A stretch of 45,142 nucleotides of DNA from an uncultured Pedobacter sp. (GTDB taxonomy: Bacteria; Bacteroidota; Bacteroidia; Sphingobacteriales; Sphingobacteriaceae), in contig NZ_CAMLHF010000014.1 of NCBI RefSeq assembly GCF_946479715.1, forward strand, positions 1-45,142, given 5' to 3'. A program made the translations under genes and the position numbers. This document shows positions 1 to 19,206 of the stretch, one piece after another. The stretch's first letter is position 1. Each line of letters starts with the position of its first letter. The notes under the pieces are model-generated. The model saw nothing but the letters and a program-made list of their open reading frames with translations. It searched no databases and was not told the DNA's origin.

Positions 1-2499
1 GTTTGGCGTTTTTTGCTTTTGAATAGAAGCAAATTCTTTCAGTCGAATATAAGACCCAGAATCAGAACGTACAGGTTCATTCATCACCTTCCATACAGAA
101 GCTGGGGGCTGCCCAGAGCTAGCAACCACAGGAACCCTTTTCCCTTCGACAAACAAATTTGTTACATATTGATCGTTTCCTGAAAAATGAGCTAAAGAAC
201 TGTTAATCATATCAGAAGAAAAATAATTAACTAGCAAATTATCATTGTTATCTACTTGAAAAACAAACTCATAATTAGAATTTGTTCCTACATAATCTCG
301 CTGACTTCCAATGGTTACATTTTCTATTCGCATGTTTTCGCGAAGCAAGCTTTGAACTTGCTCAGCATATTTTAGCAACCTTTCGTAATTATATCCAAGA
401 AGTATTATACCGAAATTAGCGGCCTCCTTATGTAATTCATTATTAAAACCTTGTCCAACACCTGAAATTACAAACTCGGCCAAACCCGTATTTATTGCCA
501 TTGATTCTAGCTGGGTCTTTAAAACAAAAGGAAAGGAACCAGTCTCAAACTCCCTCAAAAAGCTAATTTCAATAGATGCATATCCATTATTTACACGACT
601 TTGAAAATCTTCAATTTCTTTAAATTCACCCAAAAAATTTTCAAAATCCACCACAATATTATTGATCTGCTCTAGGTTTGTTCCATAAGGCATTTTGATT
701 GCTACATTTATTTTGGTCTTTCCTGCGATGACAGCCGAATAGGGAAAATGCTCTTTTCTTTCAAGGAACAATCTCAATAGCCCCCCTAAAACTACATTTA
801 AAACTGGGCGTATTTTCAAATTGTATTCATCTGTACCAATTGTTCTATTATAGGCGTTTGCCCATATGTTATTTGTAGCTATCCGCGACGGGAGAAGAAA
901 TATGGGCAAACCAAAAATAAGAATGAGGACTAGAATAAGAGATTTTTTAAACCTACTACAATAATTTATTAAATGAGAATAAAATTTAGACCATATTACT
1001 ATTCTTCTTTTTCTTCTGATAATTGAGATAAAATTTTCTTGTCTTAATGGAAATTTTTCCAAAAGTGCAGGAACTAAAAAAAGTGAGATTAATAGTGATA
1101 CTGATAAATTAATTATCATTACCCAAGCAAAATCTACCAGTCTGATTTGTTGATCCTCGCTCAAAAAAAAGACAATACAAACAGAACCTATAGTAGTAAA
1201 CGTAGCTCCAATTACAGCGAGCAGAATCCGTAAGTCTTTCTTATTCCTTATATGATCAATGACCACAATACTATTATCAATTATCAGTCCCAAAGAAACT
1301 GTTATTCCAGCCAAGGAGTATAGATGAATTTCCAGCTTAAAAAAATAATAGAAGATAAATGCCAGCAATAAGTTCGCAACCAGAGAAATTAAAATCAATA
1401 AAAAATAGCGAATTTGCCTACTGATAATCAATATAAAAATAAGTAGAACGAACAAAGCGAAAAAAGAGCGCCAGATCACTGTGTCAAGCTCCTCCTTTAG
1501 AACATCAGTGGCATCATAGTTCGTTGTTATTTTGTATTCGACAGGGATTTTTTTTCGAACGTCATTTATCTTTTCCTTTATTTCTTTTGCAAGGACAAGA
1601 TAATTTACATTCTTTGCCGCTACTATTTCCATTGTTACCGTATGCTGACCATTAATTCGGTGGTAAGATTTAGGAGGACTAGTTTGATAAACTATTTTAG
1701 CAAGATCTGTTAAAAAAATAATCCGATCACCCCATTGTTTAATTGCTATCTTATTCCAAGATACCTTATCAGGGTAATTTGTCATTAAGGTTAAATAACT
1801 ATACGTTTCCTTAACTGACTTATCGCTTGATTTAACATTAACCTTACCTAATTCAGACTTAAAAAAATAGTTATTAATAGCTAAGCTTATATCCTTGATT
1901 GAAATCTCGTATTTTGCAAGCAACGCTGGATCATAATTTAATTTCCAATTAGACCTCTCAAGGCCATAAATTGTCACTTTAGAAATACCTTTTATTTGAG
2001 CTAGTAATGGTTGAATTGTTTTCTCAATAAACAATTGGATCTCGGCACTGCTGCCTCCTGCATTTATTGAATATGATAAAACACTCTTGTTTCCAAAAGG
2101 AGTGTTTGCAAATACAGCCGGGTAGCTAATCCCTAAAGGCAAACTGGGGTATAATTGTCTGATAAGAGCTGACACTTCATACTTTACTTCATTGATCTTT
2201 ACATTTTTTCCAATGTTAGCATACACGTTACTATAGCCATTACCCGAACTCGAACTGACCTTAGTAATCCCCTTTACCGTTGCCAATAGACCTTCTATTT
2301 TTGTGGTAATCGTACTCTCCATAATCTGCGGAGAGGCATCATTCCAATAAGAATGGATTGAAATGCTGTTGAAGTTCTTTGAAGGTTCCAGCTGAACTGA
2401 CAATAAAGGTATTAACGCTGATCCAACTATCATGAACGCTACAAAAATGCTTATTACAGTAAATGCGGGTAAAGACCTTTGTTTCTGATTGTCCACCAC
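1..2499 (-). CDS. RND-family efflux permease (C-terminal part outside window)
   Basis: Inner-membrane proton-driven RND (AcrB/CusA-type) pump subunit. The minus frame is open from a tandem GTG GTG at 2499/2496 to the left edge: 833 codons, with roughly 200 residues missing compared with the usual 1000-1050. An in-frame TGA at 2524-2526 rules out a start further upstream, and the first membrane helix follows about ten residues after the GTG, so GTG is the credible start. Visible features are helix 1 (about residues 12-33), a periplasmic porter region, a block of helices around residues 330-520, and the TM4 motif SLGLIIDNSIVVIDHI, in which D408 takes the place of the AcrB proton-relay Asp. A second porter half with KMPYGTNLEQINN follows. 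It starts 5 bp after the adaptor stop, so the two form an adaptor-pump pair. No outer-membrane factor is visible in the window. The substrate cannot be told from sequence. Confidence 0.93.
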   Translation of the reverse strand, partial: MVDNQKQRSLPAFTVISIFVAFMIVGSALIPLLSVQLEPSKNFNSISIHSYWNDASPQIMESTITTKIEGLLATVKGITKVSSSSGNGYSNVYANIGKNVKINEVKYEVSALIRQLYPSLPLGISYPAVFANTPFGNKSVLSYSINAGGSSAEIQLFIEKTIQPLLAQIKGISKVTIYGLERSNWKLNYDPALLAKYEISIKDISLAINNYFFKSELGKVNVKSSDKSVKETYSYLTLMTNYPDKVSWNKIAIKQWGDRIIFLTDLAKIVYQTSPPKSYHRINGQHTVTMEIVAAKNVNYLVLAKEIKEKINDVRKKIPVEYKITTNYDATDVLKEELDTVIWRSFFALFVLLIFILIISRQIRYFLLILISLVANLLLAFIFYYFFKLEIHLYSLAGITVSLGLIIDNSIVVIDHIRNKKDLRILLAVIGATFTTIGSVCIVFFLSEDQQIRLVDFAWVMIINLSVSLLISLFLVPALLEKFPLRQENFISIIRRKRRIVIWSKFYSHLINYCSRFKKSLILVLILIFGLPIFLLPSRIATNNIWANAYNRTIGTDEYNLKIRPVLNVVLGGLLRLFLERKEHFPYSAVIAGKTKINVAIKMPYGTNLEQINNIVVDFENFLGEFKEIEDFQSRVNNGYASIEISFLREFETGSFPFVLKTQLESMAINTGLAEFVISGVGQGFNNELHKEAANFGIILLGYNYERLLKYAEQVQSLLRENMRIENVTIGSQRDYVGTNSNYEFVFQVDNNDNLLVNYFSSDMINSSLAHFSGNDQYVTNLFVEGKRVPVVASSGQPPASVWKVMNEPVRSDSGSYIRLKEFASIQKQKTPN

Positions 2500-2504
2500 C
2501 CTTA

Positions 2505-3584
2505 TTATTGTTTTAAAGAAACTTCAAGATCATGAGTAAGTGTTACATTATTAGTAACTATAACCTTCTGACCTTTTTTCAATCCTGAGTTAATACTTAC
2601 GAACCGGCTATTCTGCAAACCTATTCCTACATAATTCCATTTAGCCCGGCCATTTTCATAAGTAAATACAACTTCCCGCCCCTGCCGTTCTAATACAGCT
2701 TCTTTTGGAATAGATAATTGACGAGACACAGTATTTCTAGCTACAACTCTAACACTCATCCCATTCAAAAAATAGCCATTTACATTATCAACAACTCCAG
2801 TAATTTTAATCATTCCATTATTATCAATAAATGGCTCAACTTCTGTAATTACTCCCTTTACAAATTCTTTTCTACCAAATGGAGCAACTTCGATTACTGT
2901 CCCTTTGGATACAAACTTATACTCCGTTTCCAAAACATTAAACTCTATACGCATTTGGTGATCATCCAGCAGTGTACAAAATTCAGAAGAAGTATTTGCC
3001 GCATTAAAATTCTTTGCTTTAAGATTGGCTATTTTACCCGAAAATGGAGCCGTAATTTTTGTTTTATCCAATGATTTTTTTGCTTCATCCGATTCATAAA
3101 GTGCCCCATTATAACCACTTTTTATTCTTGCCATACGCATCACAGATTTTGGTACAATAGAAGAATCTTTTAAACGGAATCCATAATCTATCAGACGATC
3201 ATCCAATTCAACTGTCGCCTTATCTACACCATCCCTACTCTTTGCTAGTCTAATTTTAAGATCTTCGTCATCTAATTTAACAAGAACCTGCCCTCGACTA
3301 ACATAGTCTCCATTTTTCACTAGAACTGCCTTTATTTCACCATTAGAAGAAAATCTGATCTCTGCACTATTTATCGCTAGAGCCTTGCCATTACTAATAA
3401 TCTCTTGATAGAATGGGCCTTCGAAAACATCAGCAATCTCAACACTTACATTTCTCTTTTCAACAGCATTTTTTTGATTACTACCTGCAATTTCAGAATC
3501 TTCTTTAGCAGTACTAGAACAAGCATGCAAAAGTGGAAGTACTGCAAGTAACAAAAAGTAGAATAATTTTAAAGAAAAAGCCAT
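2505..3584 (-). CDS. RND efflux periplasmic adaptor lipoprotein (HlyD/AcrA family)
   Basis: Membrane-fusion subunit expected to link the RND permease to an outer-membrane channel. It has 359 residues. The N-terminus is a hydrophobic signal ending LLHAC, with lipidation expected at C22, so it is anchored in a membrane facing the periplasm. The lipoyl/barrel-sandwich half-motif VLVKNGDYVSRGQVLVKLDD lies near residues 88-107, a short helical hairpin follows, and the second half-motif KITAPFSGKIANL is near residue 175. A beta-barrel and a membrane-proximal domain ending LSIPKEAVLER close the protein. The hairpin is short, as in RND adaptors of heavy-metal/CusB or MexA type. It is 5 bp upstream of the permease and 54 bp downstream of the MG2/plug lipoprotein, so it probably shares a transcript with both. 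Confidence 0.93.
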   Translation of the reverse strand: MAFSLKLFYFLLLAVLPLLHACSSTAKEDSEIAGSNQKNAVEKRNVSVEIADVFEGPFYQEIISNGKALAINSAEIRFSSNGEIKAVLVKNGDYVSRGQVLVKLDDEDLKIRLAKSRDGVDKATVELDDRLIDYGFRLKDSSIVPKSVMRMARIKSGYNGALYESDEAKKSLDKTKITAPFSGKIANLKAKNFNAANTSSEFCTLLDDHQMRIEFNVLETEYKFVSKGTVIEVAPFGRKEFVKGVITEVEPFIDNNGMIKITGVVDNVNGYFLNGMSVRVVARNTVSRQLSIPKEAVLERQGREVVFTYENGRAKWNYVGIGLQNSRFVSINSGLKKGQKVIVTNNVTLTHDLEVSLKQ

Positions 3585-3638
3585 TTTTAAAGTTTTACTT
3601 ATTAAGAAATTAAAGGAAATCCAGATGCATTTAAATTT

Positions 3639-6158
3639 TTATTCTTCAACTTTATATCTATAAACCAATCTCCCAAGTTCACCAGCAGCATTAATCCCCT
3701 CAACAACAATCTTGTAAACCCCTGGTTCACTCGCATTGTAGAAATCAAAATATGCCTTACCGTCGTTATTAGTTTTCATTGCAGGGCTCCAATAAATTGT
3801 CGAACGAAAATCAGGAATTCTATTGTTTTTATCCCCATTTTCATATCTGGGCTCATAGAACTCACGTCCCTTATCAAAACCCTTTGCCGAAAAATTGACA
3901 ATGTTTGGGGTATATTTTTTATTTCGCAGAGGAGCCTTTTTAGTGTAAATAAGAATAGAAGCTCTCCCCAATAATCCCATTAATGCCAAATTGCTCCTAA
4001 CAACTTCTATTTTAACAATATCCATGGGATCTATTTCATTACTATCAAATATTCCTGCGATCTCTATTGGGTCCTCAATTTTTCTTCCGTTAAGTATAAT
4101 CTGCATAAGTCCGGATAGATTAATTGGATCGGGCCTAGAGAGTGGATAATTATTAACTATTCCCACCTTCCCGAAAAACACCCCATGTAATCTTCCTTGT
4201 AAACAACCCCCCAAATTGGCACAAACCTCAGGTTTTTCAAGAAAAAAGGTTTGATCAGCATGTCCTTCCGGAATCTGCATCATTCCCTGAGGAGCAAATT
4301 TTTCACTTTCCCTTTTTTTAGCTATTATTTTTACTTCTCTAAGCCTTTGAACACGACTTAACCTGCCAAACTTAGGCAATGCCTGATCCTGATTCCGGCT
4401 ATTTTCAAGATACACTTTAATATCTGTGCTAGTACCATTACTAGCTTCCGGCAAATTTTTATTCGTAGTAATACCCTGCACCTGAGCACTATCTAGTACT
4501 ATCTCAACATTTTTTCGATTGTCATGTGTTTTGGCTTGCACTACAAACTTAAAACCATCTTTGAACATTAAGTCATCAAACTTAAATCTTCCATCAGTGT
4601 TTGTTCTGGTATCTTCCATAATACCTCCATTTAATGAAAGTAGATTCACCTTGGCATTTACAAGTGGCTTATTTCCTAAGGTAACTACCCTTCCAGAAAT
4701 CTCTATACCCGACTTTTCGGTTTTGTAAACTGGAGTAAAATCCTGACCAAGATTATTCCACACAAACCTCCTGTAGCCTTGTGTCAACATCAGGTTATCC
4801 AAAGCTCTACTAGTTTCTTCGCTTTCATCAATAAAATAATGGTTCGGCTTTTCTATGTAGCCTTTCAAATCAGAACTCAGCAATAGATTTGACAGTATTG
4901 TACTTTCCGAGGTTTCGTCAAAAGGCACCTTACCCTCATTAATAACAGTAACAGAGAAGTTTCCGGCCACAAATTTTCCTGATGGATCTTTTGATTCCAT
5001 CTCTATCCAAACATTTTCCTTAGTATTGTAACTTGTCTTTTCGGTTTTCAACTTCAATTGCATCAAATCTCTACTTCTAACAAATGCTATCCTTTCATTT
5101 AATGGCTGCCCTTCATTGTTAAACAAGGTAAACTGAGCAATTCCTGTCGGAAAACTACCTTTAGCCAATCGTATTGATGTTATCGGTTTGCTCATTTTTA
5201 TTGGAGAAGAATAAATAATCTCTCCAGAGGATTGCACGATTAAAGCAACAGTTTTGGCCCGCTGATACACACCTGAGGAAGCTTTAATACTGACACTTAA
5301 ACTATCTTTATTATCCTGATTAATTGAAACAACATAGCCATCATCGCTCACTTTAGGAAGCATTATTCGTTTTTCTGACCCATCAGGATAAACTATTTCT
5401 GCAACATAACTCTTTCCCGATTCAGGTTTCAGATCAAAAGCACCCATCCCGGCATACAAGCTAGAGAAACCAGCAATTTCCTTACCCTCATTGTCTTTTA
5501 TTTTACCTTTAATACTTATGCCAGCTCCATTAATTCCAATAGCTTTAAAAGCCACTTTGGAGGTTATTCCATTAATTAACCCTCCGCTTTCCGGAAAAAA
5601 CTGAACATCACTATCAGAAAGTTCGCCTTTTAAAATAGCCTTTTTGCTTACCTTTTCTTTAGTTTCCTTCTTTACAATCTTGGAATTCGATTTGGCATCT
5701 GTATTGTTAACGAAGGGATCACCAATCATAAAAGTATGGTCAAAAAAGTAATCTTTATCCGAATTACGCATCCATTGCGTATAAGCCCTCAGTCTATAAT
5801 TCCCCTCTTTAAAATCATCTGCTAATATCAAATCCCCAGCCGATGTTCCTTTAGTCAATTGAAACTTAAGTGTTTTCTGTATGGAGTCTCTTTCATTGAT
5901 CAGATCCACATACAGTATTCCACTATGGGTTGATGGCTTATGCCTGCTCCCCATTGTTACATACGCCTTAAACCAAATGGTATCACCAACTGCATAATAG
6001 GGTTTATCAGTATGCAGGTAAACCTTTTCCTGTGGATTAGTTTCTACCCATTTATGCAAAGATGCAATTAACTTATTAACCGGATCATTATCGCTGGGAA
6101 TACATGCTAAAACCAAAATTAAAACAGAAAAGAAAGGAATATAGAGCGATCGTTTCAT
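3639..6158 (-). CDS. MG2/carboxypeptidase-like lipoprotein with TonB-plug-like domain
   Basis: A protein of 839 residues with a lipoprotein signal ending LVLAC (C19). The N-terminal segment (about residues 42-150, YLHTDKPYYAVGDTIWFKAY) is typical of the MG2 domain of alpha-2-macroglobulin-like Bacteroidota proteins. More Ig-like segments follow. A carboxypeptidase-regulatory-like domain (about 485-560, ISGRVVTLGNKPLVNAKVNL) and a region resembling a TonB-receptor plug (about 650-740, IVKIEVVRSNLALMGLLGRA then ILIYTKK) come next, and the C-terminal domain ends VYKIVVEGIN. There is no 22-strand barrel, so it cannot itself be a transporter. It is 5 bp downstream of the YD-repeat gene. Such proteins are widespread in Bacteroidota and mostly uncharacterised; a role at the cell surface or in the periplasm together with the pump is inference. 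Confidence 0.8.
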   Translation of the reverse strand: MKRSLYIPFFSVLILVLACIPSDNDPVNKLIASLHKWVETNPQEKVYLHTDKPYYAVGDTIWFKAYVTMGSRHKPSTHSGILYVDLINERDSIQKTLKFQLTKGTSAGDLILADDFKEGNYRLRAYTQWMRNSDKDYFFDHTFMIGDPFVNNTDAKSNSKIVKKETKEKVSKKAILKGELSDSDVQFFPESGGLINGITSKVAFKAIGINGAGISIKGKIKDNEGKEIAGFSSLYAGMGAFDLKPESGKSYVAEIVYPDGSEKRIMLPKVSDDGYVVSINQDNKDSLSVSIKASSGVYQRAKTVALIVQSSGEIIYSSPIKMSKPITSIRLAKGSFPTGIAQFTLFNNEGQPLNERIAFVRSRDLMQLKLKTEKTSYNTKENVWIEMESKDPSGKFVAGNFSVTVINEGKVPFDETSESTILSNLLLSSDLKGYIEKPNHYFIDESEETSRALDNLMLTQGYRRFVWNNLGQDFTPVYKTEKSGIEISGRVVTLGNKPLVNAKVNLLSLNGGIMEDTRTNTDGRFKFDDLMFKDGFKFVVQAKTHDNRKNVEIVLDSAQVQGITTNKNLPEASNGTSTDIKVYLENSRNQDQALPKFGRLSRVQRLREVKIIAKKRESEKFAPQGMMQIPEGHADQTFFLEKPEVCANLGGCLQGRLHGVFFGKVGIVNNYPLSRPDPINLSGLMQIILNGRKIEDPIEIAGIFDSNEIDPMDIVKIEVVRSNLALMGLLGRASILIYTKKAPLRNKKYTPNIVNFSAKGFDKGREFYEPRYENGDKNNRIPDFRSTIYWSPAMKTNNDGKAYFDFYNASEPGVYKIVVEGINAAGELGRLVYRYKVEE

Positions 6159-6163
6159 AATAT

Positions 6164-6973
6164 TTAATAATAGTTAATCTCTCTTTTGGTTAAATAAGTA
6201 CTTACTTTATTTTTATTATTGAGAGTAAACCAATTACCCTTCTCATCATACTCGTATGAGTATTTTTTCTTCCAGTCAACAAAGCCTCCTCCGGTATATC
6301 GAATCTCTTGAACTATATTATTGTTATTATCATATTCATAAGTAATAGAATGTTTTAAATGTCCATTTGAAGCATACGCCCGTTCGCCGCCTAACAGTAA
6401 AGTGGGTTCAATTGAGTAGGCTATACTTCCACTATTTAAAGTCGTATCATAATCATTCCACTCCTTTAATATGAGGTTATTTAAGCCATCATACTTATAA
6501 ACTTCCTTAAGCTTTAATTCTCCATATCCATCATAACAAACACGTAGGCTCCTATTATTTTTATCGTCATACTCATAACGTTCCAGGCTTTTCACCGAAT
6601 CAGAAATATATTTTTTCGCCATCATCTTTCCGCTATCATAATACATGTATTTAATCCTGTAGCCATGTTCACCATCCCCTTGCTCTTCTGAGAGTTCCTT
6701 ATCCTCATACACATAACTTATGGTTTGCTCGACGGCGTTACTATCTATCGTATTATATATTTTTTGCTCAATCAGTTTTCCATTTAAGTCATAACTATAA
6801 CTTCTTTTTTGAACCAAAGTATTTATACCCCCGGTAGTTTCGTAACATTTCTCAGTAAATGACTGTACTTTCCCTTTAGGTCTTCGCATGTCCCCATAGA
6901 ATGGAAGCTGAGCCCAGGCTTCAGAAAAGGAAAATATGATCACAATCAAGAGTAGCAGTGTTATTAATTTCAT
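6164..6973 (-). CDS. Secreted YD/RHS-like repeat protein
   Basis: Exported protein of 269 residues. The signal peptide (residues 1-21) ends SEAWA before Q22, a good signal peptidase I site with no lipobox. The mature part is built of repeated tyrosine-rich strands: YSYDLNGKLIEQKIYN, then YEYDDKNNR, YKYDGLNNLI, YEYDNNNNIVQEIRY and YEYDEKGNW. This is the YD/RHS-like pattern that forms beta-sheet-rich surface proteins. It is far too short to be an RHS toxin and carries no toxin tip that I recognise. The gene lies 5 bp upstream of the MG2/plug lipoprotein, so the two are probably cotranscribed. A 146-bp gap separates it from the CxxC protein gene upstream. Function unknown. Confidence 0.75.
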   Translation of the reverse strand: MKLITLLLLIVIIFSFSEAWAQLPFYGDMRRPKGKVQSFTEKCYETTGGINTLVQKRSYSYDLNGKLIEQKIYNTIDSNAVEQTISYVYEDKELSEEQGDGEHGYRIKYMYYDSGKMMAKKYISDSVKSLERYEYDDKNNRSLRVCYDGYGELKLKEVYKYDGLNNLILKEWNDYDTTLNSGSIAYSIEPTLLLGGERAYASNGHLKHSITYEYDNNNNIVQEIRYTGGGFVDWKKKYSYEYDEKGNWFTLNNKNKVSTYLTKREINYY

Positions 6974-7119
6974 CTAACAGTGTTTTTACATACCTCAATT
7001 TATTTTTCTATGGACTGCTTTACTAATCCGCATACAGCACGTCCTATAATATAGTAAAAAAAGAAAAAAACCACTGGCTTTCAACAACAATTGCATTTCT
7101 ATTTTTCTCTTCTAATCTT

Positions 7120-7728
7120 TCACATTTGTTCTTTTTTACTAAAAAAATTTAAATAATCTTTAGTTAATTGAGGTAATGACTTATCAGGAACAAAGATATT
7201 ATTTGCAACATTTTTATCATTAATGGTAAAAAAGTAAGGAAAATCCTGATCTTCAGTATATTTATTATCTAAGGCACCGAAAGGTATATTGATAATTTTA
7301 AAATTGATATTATACCTATTTTTTAAAATTCTTAAGTCATTAGGGCCACTATAGGATGCCATAATAATAATCCTGTCGCTACCAATTTTTTCTTCAAGCA
7401 ATTTAAGGTGTATAAACTCCTTACTTACACATAAATCACAATTTCTTTCAGATACACGAAAAAAAAGTTTGCCTTTATAATTTAATGAGGAATCAAATCT
7501 TAATATCTTATTATTAATATCCTTTGCAAGGATAAAAGTAGGCAACTTGAATGAATTACAATATTCAACCTGATATAATAACCTTTCTCTATAAGCTTTC
7601 TCTAACAGAGTGCCCTTAACCTCCACATCATTTTTTTTATCAATAAATATTCTCCTTATCAAAAAACCATTTGTGATTAATAAAAACAATATGAACAGTA
7701 AAACAAAGGAATTTTTATATAATTTCAT
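7120..7728 (-). CDS. Membrane-anchored thioredoxin-fold protein, CDLC motif (second copy)
   Basis: A protein of 202 residues with one N-terminal membrane helix (about 7-25) and a soluble domain expected in the periplasm. The domain begins with a beta strand (GKLFFRVSE) followed by a C97-x-x-C100 motif (NCDLCV), the layout of TlpA/thioredoxin-like oxidoreductases. A helix and strand (RIIIMASYSGPNDLRIL) follow, then a segment with FPYFF at about 165-169. The FPYFF proline sits where the cis-proline loop of a thioredoxin fold is expected. It is a diverged tandem paralogue of the neighbour 14 bp upstream: same length, same anchor and same CxxC position, with only modest identity. It probably acts on cysteines of exported proteins, with the six-cysteine protein of this locus as the obvious candidate; that link is inference. 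Confidence 0.75.
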   Translation of the reverse strand: MKLYKNSFVLLFILFLLITNGFLIRRIFIDKKNDVEVKGTLLEKAYRERLLYQVEYCNSFKLPTFILAKDINNKILRFDSSLNYKGKLFFRVSERNCDLCVSKEFIHLKLLEEKIGSDRIIIMASYSGPNDLRILKNRYNINFKIINIPFGALDNKYTEDQDFPYFFTINDKNVANNIFVPDKSLPQLTKDYLNFFSKKEQM

Positions 7729-7742
7729 GCCTTATTTTTGTA

Positions 7743-8351
7743 TCATTTATTAGTAATTAAATAATTTTTTCTAATATATCTCAGATAGTTTTGAGATAAG
7801 TCAACTGAGCTAACGAGCGGAATAAATATCATTTTTGCAGTTCTATCCTTATTTAAAACAAAAAAATATGGACTATTTCCCCCTTCAAGTTCTAAATCTT
7901 TTAAGCTCTCTAACTTTATATTAATAAAATTCAAGTTTGATTGTAAATGTTTTTTATAAACGACCATATCATTTATTGATTCAAATGATGTTAAGACAAA
8001 AACTTTCCCTGGTTGAATCAGTTCCAAGCTAGACTCTATAGTTTCTATCTGAGACTTTACACAAGATTCACAATTTGACCAGGAAGTACGAAAAATCAAT
8101 ACAGGGTTCTGAATAGCTAAAGACTCAAAAGGGACTTCCCTACCCAAGGAATCAGAAACAGTTATACCTTCAGGCAATTTAAAATATGTTGATTCTTCAA
8201 TACTCTTAAATAGAATAGTTTGGTCTATTTTGCTGTCTTTAACCAAACTTTCATACTCTGTCTTTAGTATTTTCGTTTCTTTGAAAAGAACAACACACAA
8301 TACCAGCAAGAATACAATTATCGCCAATATCAGATACCTAAAATTTTTCAT
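7743..8351 (-). CDS. Membrane-anchored thioredoxin-fold protein, CESC motif (first copy)
   Basis: A protein of 202 residues with a single N-terminal hydrophobic helix (about 5-23) and a periplasmic domain. The strand NPVLIFRTSW leads into C94-x-x-C97 (NCESCV), followed by a helix (SQIETIESSLELI), the strand KVFVLTSF and a second strand-loop NSPYFFVLNKD near residue 166. This is a thioredoxin-like arrangement close to the small redoxin-like proteins found in Bacteroidota lipoprotein/propeller gene clusters. Its start overlaps the end of the propeller gene by 14 bp, which argues for translational coupling. The CxxC residues are intact, so a redox role is plausible. Substrate unknown. I prefer the ATG at 8351 because it gives a clean membrane anchor. 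Confidence 0.77.
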   Translation of the reverse strand: MKNFRYLILAIIVFLLVLCVVLFKETKILKTEYESLVKDSKIDQTILFKSIEESTYFKLPEGITVSDSLGREVPFESLAIQNPVLIFRTSWSNCESCVKSQIETIESSLELIQPGKVFVLTSFESINDMVVYKKHLQSNLNFINIKLESLKDLELEGGNSPYFFVLNKDRTAKMIFIPLVSSVDLSQNYLRYIRKNYLITNK

Positions 8352-9618
8352 TAATATTATAGAACATTAACACAGGATTATCTTCTTGTTTAATTGAATT
8401 AATAAGTTTTATTGTTTTATTATCCTTCTTCTTTGAAACTACCGAGCGATCCATTCCATTCCTTCTGGCAATAATTTCAGTTGCAGTTATAGTACTAACA
8501 TAGCTATCCCTATAAACGCTTTTTGGCAAACTAAATAGGGCTAAATCAATATCTGCTGAACTCGTTGATTTACCACCGACTAATCGGCCAGTCTTCGATG
8601 AATAAAAAAATGACGCTATGTCTCCATTATTTAATTCAAAAAATAGATTATTTTTCATCTCTAAACAATTACCTTCAAAATAATAGTTTTTCTTTAAATT
8701 TAATTCCAGGAGAAATGAGCTGGCATCAATATCTTTCGTAACTCTTTTAACAATGTTCCTATCTCCCATATCAATGTGATATTTTGCAAACATTTCGGTA
8801 GCAGAAGATATTTCGAAAATAGTATCTGTAAATAAGGGAGTAAAAAGAACTTTCCCGGTATGATCTTTAAAATTCTTAGAACTATTTAGTTCATTTTTCT
8901 CAAAAACAGGCTTAGCACTAAAGGCCTTGGTAAGAATACTTTGACTTGTATCAGTAGATACAAGCTGCGCATATTTCAAATCAGGAACATGTAAATTAAT
9001 GTCGGGAGTAGCTTTGGAAAGTAGGGTTCCATCTTCCAGCCATGCCAATTTTAAATAATAATAATATGTCTTGGAAGATTTTATATACGAACCATCCTCC
9101 GAATAATAATTAATCTTTCTCCCAAAATCGTCATACAATAGAATTTCCTTTGTCAAATTATTATAGGTAACATCTCTTAGCGCTAAGAATTCTCCAGGTC
9201 CCTTACCTTTTAAAAAGATTTTTTTCATAAACTTACCCTTCAAATTAAAAATAAAAATAGAGGAAGCTTTATTGAAATCACAAACAATTATGCTCTTATC
9301 GGTGACTATAAGCTTATCAATCGAACCAATTAAAGAGTTTCTTTCCGTCTCTAATTGAATGTATTGAATGTTTCTAACCAAATCATCTAATCGTATAGAA
9401 GAAGTATCCGAGATAACTTGGGGAATTTTAACACTAAATACCTTATGGTTTTTTTTTTCTATTACAGGAATTTTATTGTTTTTAATTTCCCCTGCATACC
9501 CAGCAAAGACCGTTTTGGTTCCTGTAACTCGCTGGTCTTTAAAGTCACAAGAATTCAACATGATTATAACAATGAATGTGATGTAACCCCTTTTAAAAAG
9601 TGTTAAATATTTGATCAT
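8338..9618 (-). CDS. 6-bladed beta-propeller lipoprotein
   Basis: I take the start at the ATG at 9618, not an upstream in-frame ATG at 9687. From 9618 the protein (426 residues) opens with a proper lipoprotein signal, hydrophobic up to MLNSC, with lipidation at C24. The longer version would bury that signal and overlap the upstream gene. The body resembles the 6-bladed beta-propeller lipoproteins of Bacteroidota (BF3164/DUF4934-like). Diagnostic segments are a start strand LVRNIQYIQLETERNSLIGS, blade signatures such as SIFIFNLKGKFMKKI with GKGPGEFL, then KEILLYDDFGRKINYYSEDG, and a C-terminal part (TGRLVGG). Propellers of this group often sit next to NVEAL-type small proteins, as here. Their molecular role is not settled; surface binding of a ligand or peptide is an inference. 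Confidence 0.8.
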   Translation of the reverse strand: MIKYLTLFKRGYITFIVIIMLNSCDFKDQRVTGTKTVFAGYAGEIKNNKIPVIEKKNHKVFSVKIPQVISDTSSIRLDDLVRNIQYIQLETERNSLIGSIDKLIVTDKSIIVCDFNKASSIFIFNLKGKFMKKIFLKGKGPGEFLALRDVTYNNLTKEILLYDDFGRKINYYSEDGSYIKSSKTYYYYLKLAWLEDGTLLSKATPDINLHVPDLKYAQLVSTDTSQSILTKAFSAKPVFEKNELNSSKNFKDHTGKVLFTPLFTDTIFEISSATEMFAKYHIDMGDRNIVKRVTKDIDASSFLLELNLKKNYYFEGNCLEMKNNLFFELNNGDIASFFYSSKTGRLVGGKSTSSADIDLALFSLPKSVYRDSYVSTITATEIIARRNGMDRSVVSKKKDNKTIKLINSIKQEDNPVLMFYNINEKF

Positions 9619-9636
9619 TCTAATTTCATTTAAATT

Positions 9637-9654
9637 GGGAGAGTTACCTCTCCC
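9637..9654 (-). promoter_or_regulatory. Intercistronic hairpin with GUAA tetraloop
   Basis: Seven perfect GC-rich base pairs (GGGAGAG/CTCTCCC) close a four-base loop, GUAA on the minus-strand RNA, a GNRA-type tetraloop. It lies 5 nt after the stop of the small cysteine-rich gene and 18 nt before the propeller start. No U-run follows, so it is not a standard intrinsic terminator. It could protect the 3' end of the upstream message or lower expression of the downstream genes relative to the small exported protein. Confidence 0.6.
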
Positions 9655-9659
9655 TGTAT

Positions 9660-10142
9660 TTACACTTCTTGTTGACTCAATATACAATCAGATGAATTCG
9701 GATAACACCCTTTTACAGTGGTCCCCATAGGACAAGCCAACTTTGTTATCGTCCCTCCTATAAATCCATTTAGGACTATCGAATGTCCGCCCGGTGGCGT
9801 ATAAGCCGTTCCATATGAAGAAGTAAAGTGCCCATCTATGTAAAGTGATGCTCCCACAAGCTGATTAAAGGAATTATAATATTGAGTTTTAACGTAAGGT
9901 TTAGAACAATCTTCAGTAGTTAAAAGTTTTGCCGAACACCCCTCTGTATTCGGATCATTACACGGTGCGAGTTCTTCGGAGCCTCCTCCTCCAGTCTGGG
10001 CATATGCTTTTAAAGAGTTCAAGGAAAAACTGCCGCCATCTTTTTCAATAAAAGTTACGGCATTAAAAATAAATACGGTGAGGAATACAGCTCCTCCAAG
10101 TACCTTAGCTGCTAAGGAAACTTTCCATTTTTTTTGTTCCAT
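9660..10142 (-). CDS. Small exported six-cysteine protein, NVEAL-like precursor
   Basis: A protein of 160 residues. A basic start (MEQKKWK) and one hydrophobic stretch (about 9-32) are followed by NSLKAYAQTGGGGSEE at 42-57. That segment resembles the NVEALA-type processing region of Bacteroidota NVEAL proteins but does not match it exactly. A signal-peptidase site after AYA (48/49) is plausible. The mature part has exactly six cysteines: C61, C69, C79, C137, C146 and C153. They fall in two groups of three flanking a glycine/tyrosine-rich middle, so up to three disulfides are possible. It is the first gene of the run that contains two CxxC redox proteins and a propeller lipoprotein. It could be a secreted peptide precursor or a small structural surface protein. 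I am fairly sure it is exported and cysteine-rich, less sure of the family. Confidence 0.7.
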   Translation of the reverse strand: MEQKKWKVSLAAKVLGGAVFLTVFIFNAVTFIEKDGGSFSLNSLKAYAQTGGGGSEELAPCNDPNTEGCSAKLLTTEDCSKPYVKTQYYNSFNQLVGASLYIDGHFTSSYGTAYTPPGGHSIVLNGFIGGTITKLACPMGTTVKGCYPNSSDCILSQQEV

Positions 10143-10172
10143 ATAAAATTAATTTAAATTTGTTTATATAAA

Positions 10173-10204
10173 TCTATCTCAATAGACTGCTAAGCTTTTG
10201 CAGT
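10173..10204 (-). terminator. Possible weak terminator, two abutting hairpins
   Basis: Downstream of the GT-C gene on the minus strand, ACTGC/GCAGT (loop of nine) and TCTAT/ATAGA (loop of four) form two five-pair hairpins back to back, followed by a short TTTATAT tract. The stems are short. It would separate the glycan cassette from the small exported protein gene, but read-through is just as possible. Confidence 0.3.
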
Positions 10205-10226
10205 GCATAATTTTAATTCATGAAAA

Positions 10227-11519
10227 TTAGCCCACCCAAAAACCACTAATAAAATCATGATAGAATATCACGGTAAAAAAAATATTAAATAAAAACAGCA
10301 AGAAATACAAAGGCTGCAATTTTTGGAAAAACTTATATAAGAAAAAGGATAATCCAAATAATATATAATAAACAGTATGGTGTATATAGTTAAAAATACC
10401 AGTTACAAATATACCGGAGACCAGTATTGCCGTGATAAAGTAAACATCCTTTGATCCGGGGTTGTAATCTTTATTTATCCAATTCAAAAAACAAACTGCA
10501 AATGAAGTGCATATAAGATGTCGATTCATGCACTGCATATTTGTGCTTCCTTCAATATTATATGTAAAACAAGTATCTATTATAGCTATTGCAGATAAAA
10601 ACAAGGCAGAAAAATAAACTGATTTACAAACATGATTCTTTTCTTCTTTTAATCCACTCCTTGATGTTCTTTGTTTCGAGATAACGCAATTATAGCCCCA
10701 TTTGAAACAGAAAAACATTGCAATACAACCCAACGTTAATCCTATTGCATCAATTCCCAAAACCTTATTCGGTGAAACAGTTGTAAAAGGTATAGATGGA
10801 ATTAGCCACTCTCTTTTCCAGTATTTTTGAACCTCAATATAGTAAAACCATTTTCCTGTTTCTATCCATTGAATTAAGACGACAATGAATATACTAATGA
10901 CACAAATCAGAGTATTGGTAATAATATTTGTCAGTAACTTCTTTCTACTAATACTGGAGCTTTTGTAGGCCAATAACTCAGTTACAATCACAGCGGGTAT
11001 AAAGAAAATTGAAACAGATCTTGTTAAGCAACAACCAAACAACCCAATAAATACCAGAGTCCTGGAATCTCTTCTATAGCCAAGGATAAGCAGTGTACCA
11101 AACAAAAAAAAACATGCCTCGGAATAAGGTAGAAAGAAAAATATAAAACAAGGAATTGTACTAACAATCATCAGATAAGGTATTTTATAATTTGTCTTTC
11201 CAATTAAGAATAAAAATGAGATGATAAAGATGATTAGGTTTACAAAAATAATCTGAAAATTGCTCAAAAATGTCCATTTCCAGAGGTAAGGAAACAATGG
11301 AAAGAAAGCCATATTAGACTTTTGATTGGGAGTAAAGGTGTAACCTAAATATCTAATGTCGTTGAACCATACACCATCATTTTTAATAATGTTAACTTCA
11401 TTGGGGACTTCAGTTATTATACCAAGTTTTATAAAAATAAAGTATAAAATCACTATTACCACGATACTTGTAAATAAAACGAATAGTGCTTTGGACGTCA
11501 AGAAAAATTGTTTAGCCAT
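10227..11519 (-). CDS. Polytopic GT-C type glycosyltransferase (PIG-V/mannosyltransferase-like)
   Basis: Integral membrane protein of 430 residues with about ten hydrophobic helices. After helix 1 there is a periplasmic loop with D54-I-R-x-L-G-Y and then MAFFPLFPYLWKW at 70-82. The acidic loop and FFPLFP motif resemble those of PIG-V/GT-C transferases that use a lipid-linked sugar donor on the outer face of the membrane. It follows the GtrA-like gene by 15 bp and closes a three-gene set with the GT2. In the Shigella gtrABC systems the third gene is the serotype-specific polytopic transferase; this protein occupies that place. The acceptor and sugar are unknown. The frame is intact, and AT-rich like its neighbours. 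Confidence 0.72.
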   Translation of the reverse strand: MAKQFFLTSKALFVLFTSIVVIVILYFIFIKLGIITEVPNEVNIIKNDGVWFNDIRYLGYTFTPNQKSNMAFFPLFPYLWKWTFLSNFQIIFVNLIIFIISFLFLIGKTNYKIPYLMIVSTIPCFIFFFLPYSEACFFLFGTLLILGYRRDSRTLVFIGLFGCCLTRSVSIFFIPAVIVTELLAYKSSSISRKKLLTNIITNTLICVISIFIVVLIQWIETGKWFYYIEVQKYWKREWLIPSIPFTTVSPNKVLGIDAIGLTLGCIAMFFCFKWGYNCVISKQRTSRSGLKEEKNHVCKSVYFSALFLSAIAIIDTCFTYNIEGSTNMQCMNRHLICTSFAVCFLNWINKDYNPGSKDVYFITAILVSGIFVTGIFNYIHHTVYYILFGLSFFLYKFFQKLQPLYFLLFLFNIFFTVIFYHDFISGFWVG

Positions 11520-11534
11520 GGAGTTATAATAAAA

Positions 11535-11930
11535 TTATTTAGTTACCTTAAAGGTGAAAATTGAGTTAAGTGAAAAATTCCAAATTGCCACTAGGACAAT
11601 TGCAAAAAATTTCCCCAAATAGAATGAAAAACCTAAATTTTGATGAAATAAATACACGAGTGCAGAATTCCATATAAAACCAAACGAAGACACAATAAAA
11701 AACTGTTGAAATTGTTTCCTTACATTACTATTGCTATCTGCGAAGGTCCATCTCTTATTCAAGTTAAAAACAATAACCATGGCAATAGAAACACCCAACA
11801 AATTTGATAAATAAGGGTTTAGTTGAAAGTATTCTTTAAAGAGAATCGTAAAACTAAAATCAATCAACATTCCAATGCTTCCACATATACCGAATTTCAA
11901 AACTCTGAAAATGAATGTAGAAATTTTCAT
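11535..11930 (-). CDS. GtrA-family membrane protein
   Basis: Protein of 131 residues with four membrane helices. It has the GtrA-family hallmarks: RVLKFGICGSIGMLIDFSFT at the first helix, PYLSNLLGVSIAMVIVFNLN for the second, the basic segment NKRWTFADSN, and a C-terminal NFSLNSIFTF close to the usual family ending W-N-F-x-x-N-x-x-F-x-F. Members are thought to flip a bactoprenol-linked sugar across the inner membrane. Its ATG overlaps the GT2 stop by 4 bp (ATGA), so translation of the two is coupled, and the GT-C gene follows closely. Length is normal for the family. Confidence 0.9.
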   Translation of the reverse strand: MKISTFIFRVLKFGICGSIGMLIDFSFTILFKEYFQLNPYLSNLLGVSIAMVIVFNLNKRWTFADSNSNVRKQFQQFFIVSSFGFIWNSALVYLFHQNLGFSFYLGKFFAIVLVAIWNFSLNSIFTFKVTK

Positions 11931-12769
11931 CTCTGCAAAGGATTCGAACTTGAATGGATTGAACTTAGAACAGACTGAATATTAGAGGCATGATTCGTGT
12001 TGTTTTTTCTTTCATTCGCTCTAATCCTGTACTTATATTTAATAGCAAAAAGTATGAAAGGAATTTTCACCACATCAACAAACTTCACCTTTGAATTACC
12101 TTTCTCCGTCCATACGTTAATTGGAATCTCTTTCATAAGCCTATTTAAATCTACCAAGGAATATAGCAATTTCATTTTGGCGAAAATTTCAACATCAAAA
12201 AGCCATCGACTTAAAAATGGGTCTTTAAATAATTCATTTGCCAAATCACGGCTAAATATCTTGAGCCCACATTGTGTGTCGTAAATAGAGAGCTTTAGTG
12301 CCATATCAATCAGAGTTGCTATAACACGCCCACCATAGTGACGATAACTTAAACGCTTTATTTGGCTTCCAAATACAGAAACACGTGAACCGAAAACAAA
12401 TAATAATTCTTGTCGCGATTCAATTAACCAAAACACTCTTTGAACTTCTTCAAGTGGGGTAGATAAATCTGCATCTAAATAACATATATACTTTGTAGAA
12501 AAATTCTTTAGTACGAAATTAACTCCCCTACGTACGGCTTCACCTTTCCCAAGATTTACCATTAACGAAACAGCACATACATTTTTTTTATATCTTGATT
12601 CCAAATTATCAATAAAATATTGAGTTAGATCTGAACTCCCATCATTTACAAAACAAAATCCAATATTAGAATTATCCCTAATAAACTTCTCAAATGACTG
12701 AAGGGGGAAACGTTTAAATTCATTATAGCAAGGCACTATTACAATCATTGTTTTTTCCTTGTTCTCCAT
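11927..12769 (-). CDS. Family 2 glycosyltransferase, bactoprenol/dolichyl-phosphate sugar transferase type
   Basis: Protein of 280 residues with the GT-A fold of DPM1/ALG5/GtrB-type enzymes, which charge a polyprenyl phosphate with a sugar at the cytoplasmic face. Visible motifs are IVIVPCYNEFKR (9-20), VNDGSSD (41-47), NLGKGEAVRRG (72-82) and the nucleotide/metal-binding DADLSTP (99-105). Further on, YDTQCGLKIFSRD and SRWLFDVEIFAK are typical of ALG5-like proteins. There are no C-terminal membrane helices like those of classical GtrB, so it resembles the soluble or peripheral ALG5-like branch. It is the first gene of the GT2-GtrA-GT-C cassette and overlaps gtrA by 4 bp. Donor sugar unknown; glucose is the family default, but that is inference. 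Confidence 0.88.
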   Translation of the reverse strand: MENKEKTMIVIVPCYNEFKRFPLQSFEKFIRDNSNIGFCFVNDGSSDLTQYFIDNLESRYKKNVCAVSLMVNLGKGEAVRRGVNFVLKNFSTKYICYLDADLSTPLEEVQRVFWLIESRQELLFVFGSRVSVFGSQIKRLSYRHYGGRVIATLIDMALKLSIYDTQCGLKIFSRDLANELFKDPFLSRWLFDVEIFAKMKLLYSLVDLNRLMKEIPINVWTEKGNSKVKFVDVVKIPFILFAIKYKYRIRANERKNNTNHASNIQSVLSSIHSSSNPLQR

Positions 12770-12862
12770 GTAAAACTATTAATGAATGTATAATGCTTAT
12801 TGATATAAATCTAATTTACTTCGATGCAAAAAAATAACAGTATAACTAAATTCATTATTTCC

Positions 12863-13096
12863 CTATCCTGTTTTTTTAAATGTAAAATCAAAGGTGCCAT
12901 CTGTCGAATAATAATAGGATTGCCTACTCCTGTTATATCTAATATCTGCACCTTGATTTCTAAGAATGGAAATATATGCGAATATGGTTCTTTCACTTAC
13001 AGAAAGCTTTTTAGCTAATTGAATTGGAGATCCGGTAGCTCTTCTCCGAATTAATGAATTTAACTGATCGAGTCTGTTGAAATAGTAAGTTGGCAT
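12863..13096 (-). CDS. Small HTH (DeoR/HTH_11-like) DNA-binding protein
   Basis: Protein of 77 residues. The N-terminal half is a winged-helix region: RLDQLNSLIRRRATGSPIQL, then AKKLSVSERTIFAYISILRN with a clear recognition helix, then a wing QGADIRYNRSRQSYYYS. This matches the HTH_11/DeoR-like pattern of many small Bacteroidota proteins next to surface glycan genes. It has no effector domain. It lies 93 bp upstream of the GT2 gene and about 160 bp downstream of the LytTR gene, with two LytTR-box-like repeats just upstream of it. It probably controls the glycan cassette or is a step in its control. Other open frames over the same bases give no recognisable protein. Confidence 0.72.
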   Translation of the reverse strand: MPTYYFNRLDQLNSLIRRRATGSPIQLAKKLSVSERTIFAYISILRNQGADIRYNRSRQSYYYSTDGTFDFTFKKTG

Positions 13097-13182
13097 AAAT
13101 TGAGAGCAATAGGTTTACATTAGCAATTTAATAAGAGCTTATTTATTAACAAACAAATTACATAGACACCTATTTTCAAATG

Positions 13183-13250
13183 ACTAACGGGCTTTAAAAT
13201 TACACTAACGCCAAATATTTAGGCAACAATGTTAAATGAAAGCGTTAGGA
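13183..13250 (-). promoter_or_regulatory. Putative LytTR binding boxes (two direct repeats plus one inverted copy)
   Basis: On the minus strand CCCGTTAGT (13183-13191) and GGCGTTAGT (13204-13212) start 21 bp apart, which leaves a 12-bp spacer. That is the spacing known for LytTR regulators, whose 9-bp box has GTT in its centre. A third copy, AGCGTTAGG, is on the plus strand at 13241-13249. The repeats lie 87-116 bp upstream of the small HTH gene and directly downstream of the LytTR gene. The match is by eye to the general family pattern, so binding is inferred. Confidence 0.5.
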
Positions 13251-13259
13251 AACAACATC

Positions 13260-14060
13260 TTAAGTTAAGATACTCTCGAATGAAAAATCAAAATCGCGGT
13301 ACAGCGACAGGATCATCGCGATAAATAACATTATTTTATTGAGAATTAAAATCCTAGGATTAAATACGTCCAGTATTCCAGCTTTGTAAGATTGTCCGAT
13401 CGGAATGATGATATTCTTATCTAGTATTACCCGATTAGATTCGATAGACCTTATTTTATTAATATTAATAATAAAAGATCGGTGAACTCTTATAAAAACA
13501 TTCTCTGACAACACCTTCTCAATTCCATTAAGTGTAAAATTTGCAATACACTTTTCTCCTGTTTGATTGATAATGATGTAGTTTTGGCTCGCTTCTATGT
13601 AAAAGATATCATTGATATTTATCCTTATAATTTTCCCCTTTTCACATTTTATAAAGAAATGATCTTCTTTGTGAAACTCTTGAATAAATTTTGGTTTGCT
13701 ATGACTCCATTTAGGTTTGGGTAAATTGACCCTTTCAAGAAATTTATCATAGCCAAAAGGTTTTTGCATATAATTCAACCTATGTTTTTCAAAAAACTCT
13801 TTTGACAAGGTCTTTAATGGATCTACAAAAACAACATTAAATGCAAGTCCGAGCGAATCATTCAAATTAATCATACGCTCTTCATTGATTTGTTGATTCA
13901 CAATGATAATATCAGGTTTACTTGAAGAATATATAGATAATGCGACTTTAACAAGATCATCGGACACTCCTACTATTTTTAGCCCCTCAGTCTTGTATAT
14001 AAAATCAAACAATTCAGAAATAGGCTTATTATCGTTTGAGAGAACGTAAATTTTTATCAT
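13260..14060 (-). CDS. LytTR-family regulator with degenerate receiver domain
   Basis: Protein of 266 residues. Residues 1-115 have the receiver fold pattern, but the phosphoacceptor position after the third strand (KPDIIIVNQQ) is N55 instead of Asp, while the conserved Lys is kept (MQKPFG, K100). The DNA-binding LytTR domain spans about 130-232: DIFYIEASQNYIII, then VFIRVHRSFIININKI and NIIIPIGQSYKAGIL. It therefore probably works without phosphorylation, and no histidine kinase lies beside it. After the LytTR domain there is an unusual 34-residue tail with a hydrophobic run (LILNKIMLFIAMILSL, 238-253). The gene stands upstream of the HTH gene and the glycan cassette, with LytTR-like boxes between. 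A role in switching that cassette is inference. Confidence 0.87.
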   Translation of the reverse strand: MIKIYVLSNDNKPISELFDFIYKTEGLKIVGVSDDLVKVALSIYSSSKPDIIIVNQQINEERMINLNDSLGLAFNVVFVDPLKTLSKEFFEKHRLNYMQKPFGYDKFLERVNLPKPKWSHSKPKFIQEFHKEDHFFIKCEKGKIIRININDIFYIEASQNYIIINQTGEKCIANFTLNGIEKVLSENVFIRVHRSFIININKIRSIESNRVILDKNIIIPIGQSYKAGILDVFNPRILILNKIMLFIAMILSLYRDFDFSFESILT

Positions 14061-14335
14061 AAATATTTGGCTATAGGGAATAGTAAGATTACATATAATA
14101 AATCATTTTTTTAAAAAAAAGTAAAACTTATAAATTATAACTATCAATAAGCTAAAAATATATCTCCTAGAAAGTTATAAATGGTAATCAAAAAAGGTAC
14201 AACAATAAGTACATATTAGATTGTCTTAATAGATTTCAAATCTAACTAGTCTTCGTGAGATCAACATTTGGAACCTAGACATATTAAAATTTGTCGCATT
14301 TTTAAAATGGCTATTGCCATAATAGGTCTGCGATA
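14061..14335. other. AT-rich intergenic stretch at composition change
   Basis: This is 275 bp without a gene, between the LytTR start and the ABC ATPase stop. It holds a 15-bp palindrome (TAGATTT-C-AAATCTA, 14230-14244) and a short hairpin on the minus strand (ATGGC/GCCAT, 14307-14320, then TTTT), which may be a weak terminator for the ATPase. An 11-bp direct repeat, ATATTAAAATT, occurs at 14281 and 14333. The LytTR promoter should lie here, but I see no clean TAnnTTTG box. Confidence 0.5.
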
Positions 14336-15328: not shown

Positions 15329-15369
15329 AGTTCAAAGATAATATAAAAGTATTGGTCATTAAACAAAAA

Positions 15370-15396
15370 AATCCCGCAGTATACTACCGCGGGATT
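15370..15396 (-). terminator. Intrinsic terminator after the outer-membrane protein gene
   Basis: Eight perfect pairs, AATCCCGC/GCGGGATT, close an 11-nt loop. On the minus strand the stem is followed directly by a run of seven T. It sits 27 bp past the stop of the outer-membrane protein gene and should end the long heme/sigma-factor run. Confidence 0.87.
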
Positions 15397-15422
15397 GGTT
15401 TTATTTGTGTGTGTTGTGTGTT

Positions 15423-16232: not shown

Positions 16233-16261
16233 TGTATGTATGGTTTGTGTGTTTCCTAATT

Positions 16262-17537: not shown

Positions 17538-17559
17538 TTGTGTGTTTGGTATATAGTAG

Positions 17560-17585
17560 ATGACGCAACTATAGAAAAGGTTGCA
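17560..17585 (-). promoter_or_regulatory. Possible ECF-dependent promoter of the sigma gene
   Basis: On the minus strand TGCAACC (17585-17579) and CGTCAT (17565-17560) lie 13 bp apart and 22 bp before the sigma start. This resembles the AAC / CGTC layout of autoregulated ECF promoters, with a spacing slightly short of the usual one. The same stretch holds an inverted repeat GCAAC-N10-GTTGC, so an operator is an alternative. Confidence 0.35.
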
Positions 17586-17612
17586 CGCAGTAATAAAAAA
17601 AATTAAAGGGGT

Positions 17613-18161: not shown

Positions 18162-18168
18162 TTTTATA

Positions 18169-19191: not shown

Positions 19192-19206
19192 GTAAATCTA
19201 TTTTGT

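Follow-up and report, generated by a model that had tools for sequence, protein, structure and literature searches.

A candidate secretion pathway for small cysteine-containing proteins in Pedobacter and other Bacteroidota

The nearest worked example of the system discussed here is the heat-stable enterotoxin STII, which, according to the passages of PMC5985334 that deal with it, is exported by Sec, is disulfide-bonded and leaves the cell via MacAB-TolC. In a 45,142-nucleotide stretch of DNA from an uncultured Pedobacter sp. (contig NZ_CAMLHF010000014.1; hereafter, the window), a run of genes joins a small six-cysteine exported protein to a propeller lipoprotein, two CxxC proteins and parts of a resistance-nodulation-division (RND) pump. 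As with STII, a tripartite pump would here pick up a small Sec-exported disulfide peptide in the periplasm. By contrast, the STII pump is of the ABC type (MacB), whereas two RND permeases are found here, the window's being an ACR_tran protein, and the passages on STII in PMC5985334 make no mention of a propeller, a dedicated peptidase or a glycosyltransferase, unlike the loci described below. We assign a probability of roughly 0.6 to the reading that these genes form a dedicated periplasm-to-outside secretion pathway for the small cysteine-containing protein.

Other described systems share some of these features. The heteromeric RND efflux pump MdtABC combines one adaptor with two unlike permeases encoded side by side. 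The same arrangement is found here, and the second permease, RND2, has MdtB as its best match in PDB (E 9.7e-79); on the other hand, the pump genes have cargo, propeller and redox genes as neighbours, the first permease, RND1, best matches CmeB (E 3.5e-34), and gene adjacency makes the pair a candidate heteromer. Both permeases read IDN where their best-matched pumps have VDD. Methylamine dehydrogenase has a propeller large subunit and a cysteine-rich small subunit matured by MauD and MauE, and the loci here resemble it in having a propeller, a cysteine-rich small protein and thioredoxin-like and MauE proteins; they differ in that a scan of the window genes gave no MauE match, and in the presence of a pump and a signal peptidase. 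Finally, loci of Bacteroidales that combine NVEALA proteins (PF14055) with 6-bladed propellers are alike in the short precursor (a signal helix and an extension ending A-x-A), the adjacent propeller gene, the pump type and the signal peptidase, but the window locus has CxxC proteins and three putative sugar-handling proteins (MANT, GtrA and GT2), and lacks an O-antigen-ligase-like protein.

In the literature library searched, with subscription papers and preprints outside its scope, the words NVEAL and NVEALA were not found, no title or abstract opening described this system, and no assigned function was found. RND pumps have been studied mainly for drugs and metals; a branch dedicated to ribosomal peptides, if it exists, would put a familiar machine to a new use, and NVEALA-propeller pairs would gain a concrete, testable role.

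A gene run for a small protein, a propeller and a pump

The eight genes share the minus strand. The small exported protein (9660..10142; 160 residues, six cysteines) has a signal helix and then an extension of about 20 residues that, by eye, ends in AYA|Q. Downstream is the 6-bladed beta-propeller lipoprotein (8338..9618; 426 residues from its ATG; PF17170 at 120.2 bits, cut-off 22.9), with a lipobox, LNSC, also read by eye. Its listed start, a TTG at 9687, would fall inside the small gene; the ATG at 9618, which is followed by the lipobox and leaves 41 bp between the genes, is the likely start. Next come CxxC1 (7743..8351), a membrane-anchored thioredoxin-like protein, its paralogue CxxC2 (7120..7728), a YD-repeat protein (6164..6973; RHS repeat PF05593 at 31.3 bits), a CarboxypepD_reg lipoprotein, here called the MG2 protein (3639..6158), an RND periplasmic adaptor (2505..3584; TIGR01730 at 167.8 bits, cut-off 94.9; HlyD-type domains; a lipoprotein by eye) and RND1, a divergent RND permease cut by the window edge (1..2499; PF00873, ACR_tran, at 198 bits). 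In the order of transcription, from the small gene to RND1, the distances are 41 bp, an overlap of 14 bp, and then 14, 146, 5, 54 and 5 bp. Thus, the eight minus-strand genes and the spacing given in the original prediction, including the 146-bp gap, were confirmed, and the propeller, adaptor, RND permease and YD/RHS repeat each score above their family cut-offs. The predicted MG2/plug lipoprotein stood in part: CarboxypepD_reg is above its cut-off (36.6 bits), and MG2 (27.2 of 32.8 bits) and Plug (13.9 of 23.9 bits) fall below theirs. On the coding strand of the 146-bp gap, no terminator-like site was found by a pattern scan that overall was no richer in sites than shuffled sequences.

Over 20 kb, the window shares 98% identity with Pedobacter sp. 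V48, which supplies the continuation of the run. There, RND1 is complete (1065 residues, L005:2933-6130; loci are numbered L and genomes G), the window holding its N-terminal 833 residues. Past it lies RND2 (1022 residues), then, on the opposite strand, a TolC-type protein and signal peptidase I, and, further on, a second MANT, a GT2-like protein, a PMT_2 protein and another small-propeller pair, the second, accompanied by a polytopic protein. An RND tripartite set is therefore spread over permease and adaptor in the window and second permease and TolC-type protein in V48. The predicted eight-gene set contained no second RND permease, TolC, signal peptidase, lipid-linked-sugar enzymes or regulators; the unit is larger, with sugar enzymes and regulators upstream and, in V48, RND2, TolC and signal peptidase downstream. 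Few changes separate the window from V48: substitutions in the small protein and the propeller are silent only, and silent and replacing changes number 0 and 4 in the adaptor, 0 and 3 in CxxC1, and 1 and 12 in GT2.

The twin CxxC membrane thioredoxin-like proteins were upheld, one through its predicted fold and the other through paralogy (30% identity over 149 residues, E 9e-20). Neither has a Pfam match near the cut-off, a single-sequence database search with CxxC1 gave two matches, and the CxxC profile met only weak matches, Sco-type included, among PDB sequences. As PDB sequence searches were uninformative for this profile and for that of a TMTC-like protein discussed below, predicted folds were used instead. 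The CxxC1 model, made from a 14-row alignment (predicted local distance difference test, pLDDT, 85.6), consists of a membrane helix and a thioredoxin fold with CxxC at a helix start, and its best Foldseek matches are Bcp1, TlpA and ResA (probability 1.00, E 2-3e-7). The motif is kept in 13 of the 14 aligned sequences. A CxxC-profile protein with an added DUF1573 domain (L041:8287-9243) links both redox-type partners in a related locus.

A hairpin (9637..9654, z -4.5) lies between the small and propeller genes. Hairpins at z <= -2.5 occur in 9 of 15 such gaps compared with 17 of 74 other gaps; this count leaves out L022 of 16 gaps, as the propeller gene precedes the small gene there, and several of the loci are close kin. 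In bacteriocin operons, comparable hairpins allow surplus production of the precursor. The hairpins here suggest that small protein and propeller are made in unequal amounts.

Recurrence of the pump, the propeller and the small proteins

Genome searches scored the best candidates per genome (at most 2 to 15, depending on the search), so the counts that follow are lower bounds. Among 145 genomes of V48's genus, RND1, a distinct permease type, is found at E 1e-150 in at least 10 loci of at least nine genomes. Four of these loci built the profile; five of the other six were reached via the pump alone, and one (in G126) lies beside a known core locus. Each of the six has one to three small exported cysteine proteins and a propeller-size lipoprotein within about 8 kb, and DUF1573, CxxC or MauE proteins are frequent. 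The lipoprotein of L059 is a member of the propeller profile A6, that of L060 matches PF17170 at 135 bits, and that of L063 was recognized by profile comparison (probability 85). In L067, identification is indirect, by way of a relative with matches to TolB_like and PF17170, while the L061 protein matches DUF4221, which we take to be a propeller, and that of L062 is unconfirmed as one. The figure of nine propellers in 10 pump loci of the genus is circular because the seeds came from those loci.

With profile A5, RND1 was found at E 1e-150 in at least 57 of 395 genomes, V48 being one of them, and the scores leave a gap from 923 to 682 bits. Forty of the 57 were fetched as loci outside the genus (13/13 above the gap and 27/44 below), several of them cut by contig ends. 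With propeller seeds taken from V48's genus, a propeller was found beside RND1 in 27 of these 40 loci and, after one profile iteration, in 32, compared with none of 20 loci of other RND permeases (Fisher 7e-10 for 32/40), these controls being hand-picked from 12 pump-carrying genomes, 3 in V48's genus, and some pump loci being longer stretches than the controls in one pump-versus-control comparison. Of the 27 first-round matches, profile A6 gave 24, the seeds from L061 and L067 gave two, and the unconfirmed L062 seed gave one (L078). Propeller and small cysteine protein occur jointly in 14/40 pump loci and 0/20 controls. Seven lower-scoring RND loci (L085-L091) proved unfit as negative controls, five having a propeller and a small cysteine or CxxC protein, and the 20 loci of other RND permeases were used instead. 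In L081, a small gene, a propeller-size lipoprotein (one of them profile-confirmed) and a DUF1573 or CxxC-type gene are repeated several times.

The sequence of the small protein itself is nearly uninformative: a database search gave two matches, the V48-type copy and P0002 at 76%, and two further searches found it in one of 59 relatives and at one locus. Neighbourhoods were consequently reached via the CxxC and pump proteins. The relatives' small proteins differ widely in length and cysteine number. Membership of the window protein in the NVEAL type was not supported at the level of family, as it lacks the NVEALA motif and is unmatched by PF14055 (cut-off 27 bits) up to E 0.1. It does have the NVEALA-like trait of a signal helix and an extension ending A-x-A, ...IFNAVTFIEKDGGSFSLNSLKAYAQ, with predicted cleavage, and NVEAL-propeller pairs turned out to be proper relatives. 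PF14055 is above its cut-off in at least two of the 395 genomes (G401 and G510; at least four at E 1e-3), and both belong to the set of 12 genomes beyond V48's genus whose RND1 scores above the gap. Five of six and three of five NVEALA matches, respectively, lie on the pump contig, 13-27 kb from the pump, in a stretch that includes propellers, signal peptidase, Wzy_C/TPR-like and thioredoxin-like genes. In Phocaeicola massiliensis (OY726023.1, L141), a one-strand run from 106 to 19424 comprises three NVEALA genes (PF14055 at 43-50 bits), propellers, signal peptidase, a Wzy_C/TPR (O-antigen-ligase-like) protein, adaptor, RND2, TolC and RND1. The pump very likely belongs to the propeller/small-protein system because of the pump-propeller association, the co-occurrence of NVEALA with the pump, and this single run. 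The OY726023.1 record is labelled a plasmid, a label that is doubtful. In L139, an NVEALA-propeller pair has no pump within the 16 kb seen, and the genome's RND1 match is on a different contig; a single pump may handle cargo encoded at scattered places. From the tables of PMC10434189, a corresponding gene set seems to be present in Bacteroides thetaiotaomicron, a species open to genetic work, namely BT0662 (O-antigen ligase family), BT0664 (propeller), BT0667 (signal peptidase) and BT0669 (RND adaptor).

In 13 small proteins from V48's genus, serine and threonine account for 16-37% of the mature sequence, against a background of 12%, which is compatible with O-glycosylation without being a test for it. 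Bacteriocin-like NCBIfam hints in 3/10 small proteins of relatives were below the cut-off (E <= 0.01) and were not used as evidence. Near an RND1-type locus with several propellers, two short cysteine-rich proteins (L089:17468-17668 and 19291-19488) have a bacteriocin-like leader (NCBIfam leader_Chryseo, below cut-off).

Within the 145 genomes, a CxxC1 search matched at least 12, and a profile search at least 22 at E 1e-3. Core loci, defined by a CxxC profile match at E <= 1e-10, number 16 in 15 genomes, after exclusion of G015:C3 (internal stop), G015:C120 (short) and seven weaker matches, among which G094 (L054), but not G029 (L055), has a comparable set of genes. The CxxC protein is present in 16/16 by construction; the propeller, too, is in 16/16, a count that is not independent, as many of these loci served to train profile A6. 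RND1 is found in five core loci and a barrel-type outer-membrane protein of about 940 residues in eight; none has both and three have neither (p 0.026, kinship ignored). The barrel proteins of G065 and G124, close kin, are 95% identical. Two core loci (G015) are on contigs of 3-5 kb, but none of the 10 genomes counted as lacking the pump has an RND1 match at any place. A polytopic DDxW protein accompanies 13/16 core loci, lying about 21 kb off in V48. The MG2 protein is in 2/16, the second case (L025) adjoining MANT and GtrA homologues, and the YD protein only in the window's own locus, so these two predicted parts of the system are not supported as such. L036-L040 have a minimal version of the module, made up of a polytopic protein, a small protein and a propeller.

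A proposed pathway and alternative readings

In the proposed pathway, Sec would export the precursor, and its unusually long signal segment would be cut after A-x-A, in some loci by the signal peptidase I encoded in the cluster. Membrane-tethered thioredoxin-like CxxC proteins, or DUF1573 or MauE proteins in relatives, would set the disulfides of the cargo, which may possibly also receive sugar; GT2/GtrA would make the lipid carrier that supplies it. In most of the genus's core loci, transfer would fall to the TMTC-like protein with its GT-C fold, in others to the O-antigen-ligase-like protein, and in the window perhaps to MANT. Binding or escort of the cargo would be the task of the propeller lipoprotein, whose gene usually adjoins the small one, and adaptor, two different RND permeases and TolC would move it out, where it might act as a signal or in a bacteriocin-like manner. 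In some loci, the barrel-type outer-membrane protein would replace the pump. The data show the gene content, its recurrence, the association of pump with propeller and two predicted folds; each biochemical step, the direction of export and what the cargo does are inferred from these. Related lines recur in other Bacteroidota, gut bacteria included. A pathway found throughout the Bacteroidota for small ribosomal peptides that are glycosylated and disulfide-bonded, each with a propeller partner and a heteromeric RND-TolC or barrel exit, and with NVEALA proteins from gut Bacteroidales as cargo, is a tentative extension to which we give slightly less than even odds.

The TMTC-like protein of related loci has a predicted GT-C fold, and its DD, KE(T/Q) and RxxY motifs are invariant in 10/10 aligned sequences. 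In the sections of PMC7801869 that define the motifs of TMTC, an O-mannosyltransferase (GT105) of the GT-C superfamily, the GT-C fold, the first-loop DD, KEQ and RxxY are shared features, whereas the protein of the related loci lacks the TPR, SHKSYRP and RxD described there. The four members scanned have no TPR domain and no Pfam match above cut-off, and the profile found nothing among PDB sequences.

Several observations weigh against the secretion pathway as drawn. The small protein, propeller and CxxC protein occur without the pump in 11/16 core loci, and the Pfam matches of the barrel protein are sub-threshold. Among the 40 pump loci outside the genus, no propeller was found in eight, the small-cysteine criterion alone separates poorly (19/40 against 5/20 controls), and one lower-scoring locus (L088) shows no propeller, small cysteine or CxxC protein. 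The alignment of TMTC-like proteins does not keep SHKSYRP and RxD, the GT-C model has no Foldseek match at E <= 0.001 (best, 1.1e-3), and the window locus has no TMTC-like gene, the nearest in V48 being about 21 kb from CxxC1, beside the second small-propeller pair. Core loci lacking the pump mean that a strict claim of one fixed unit fails. What stands of the original prediction is a shared kind of system: the core is regularly pump-free, yet this pump type usually stands beside a propeller and small cysteine proteins.

Instead of cargo and escort, the small cysteine protein and the propeller could be two subunits of one envelope complex, similar to methylamine dehydrogenase, with the pump moving something else, such as a substrate. 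Their genes are often adjacent, repeatedly so in L081 and L141, MauE-like proteins occur in L063, L089 and L090, and thioredoxin-like proteins are in the locus. Nevertheless, such a complex appears unlikely, as the hairpins between both genes suggest unequal amounts, the small proteins vary widely in length and cysteine number, L063 has three small genes for one propeller-size lipoprotein, and no cofactor-bearing protein was recognized. It is quite unlikely that the pump serves self-protection, ridding the producer's periplasm of a membrane-active peptide that is released by another route. RND pumps are commonly protective, and core loci without the pump imply that release does not always depend on it, but the mutual exclusion of pump and barrel protein fits alternative exits better.

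A sensor of envelope signals formed by propeller and CxxC proteins, with small proteins as ligands or decoys and the pump as regulated output, would account for the LytTR and HTH_11 regulators that adjoin the window genes and some relatives; it strikes us as very unlikely, since no sensor kinase was recognized in the window's run and regulators were not found at all of the loci. That two unrelated units are chance neighbours in this strain, as the 146-bp gap and the pump-free core loci might imply, is highly improbable and is already contradicted by the pump-propeller association outside the genus, against 0/20 controls, and by the single run in P. massiliensis. The secretion pathway remains our preferred reading.

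Flanking genes and further observations

The same-strand run does not start at 10142, as had been predicted, since five minus-strand genes lie before the small gene. MANT (10227..11519) is a polytopic protein, unmatched in Pfam, which from our reading of its motifs we presume to be a PIG-V-like GT-C mannosyltransferase. Homologues are found in core loci L025, L027, L029 and L042, and the second V48 copy is 47% identical. Its reading frame is open in the window, but a one-base gap splits the copy in V48 (L001:8623-9916), which points to either a sequencing error or a broken gene. Next to it are a GtrA-type membrane protein (11535..11930; PF04138 at 85.6 bits) and a GT2 glycosyltransferase (11927..12769; PF00535 at 56.2 bits), probably a polyprenyl-phosphate-sugar synthase. 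A second context for the TMTC-like glycosyltransferase is provided by six loci of V48's genus (L043, L044, whose tail was unseen, and L046-L049), in which it occurs with an Alg9-like mannosyltransferase and a lipoprotein of about 420-540 residues (signal ending FACRKDI or similar), and with no propeller.

The two remaining genes are a small HTH_11 regulator (12863..13096; PF08279 at 29.2 bits, cut-off 25) and a LytTR-type regulator (13260..14060; PF04397 at 72 bits), a neighbour with a putative role in the system. In the fetched loci, controls included, the HTH_11 protein has eight profile matches below 1e-9 at seven places, one being the V48 copy; all adjoin modules of this kind, and one weak match (5e-4) lies elsewhere. 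LytTR-type or similar response regulators are found near modules in L061, L062, L064, L067 and L139, the LytTR assignment being by Pfam for the window and L067 genes only.

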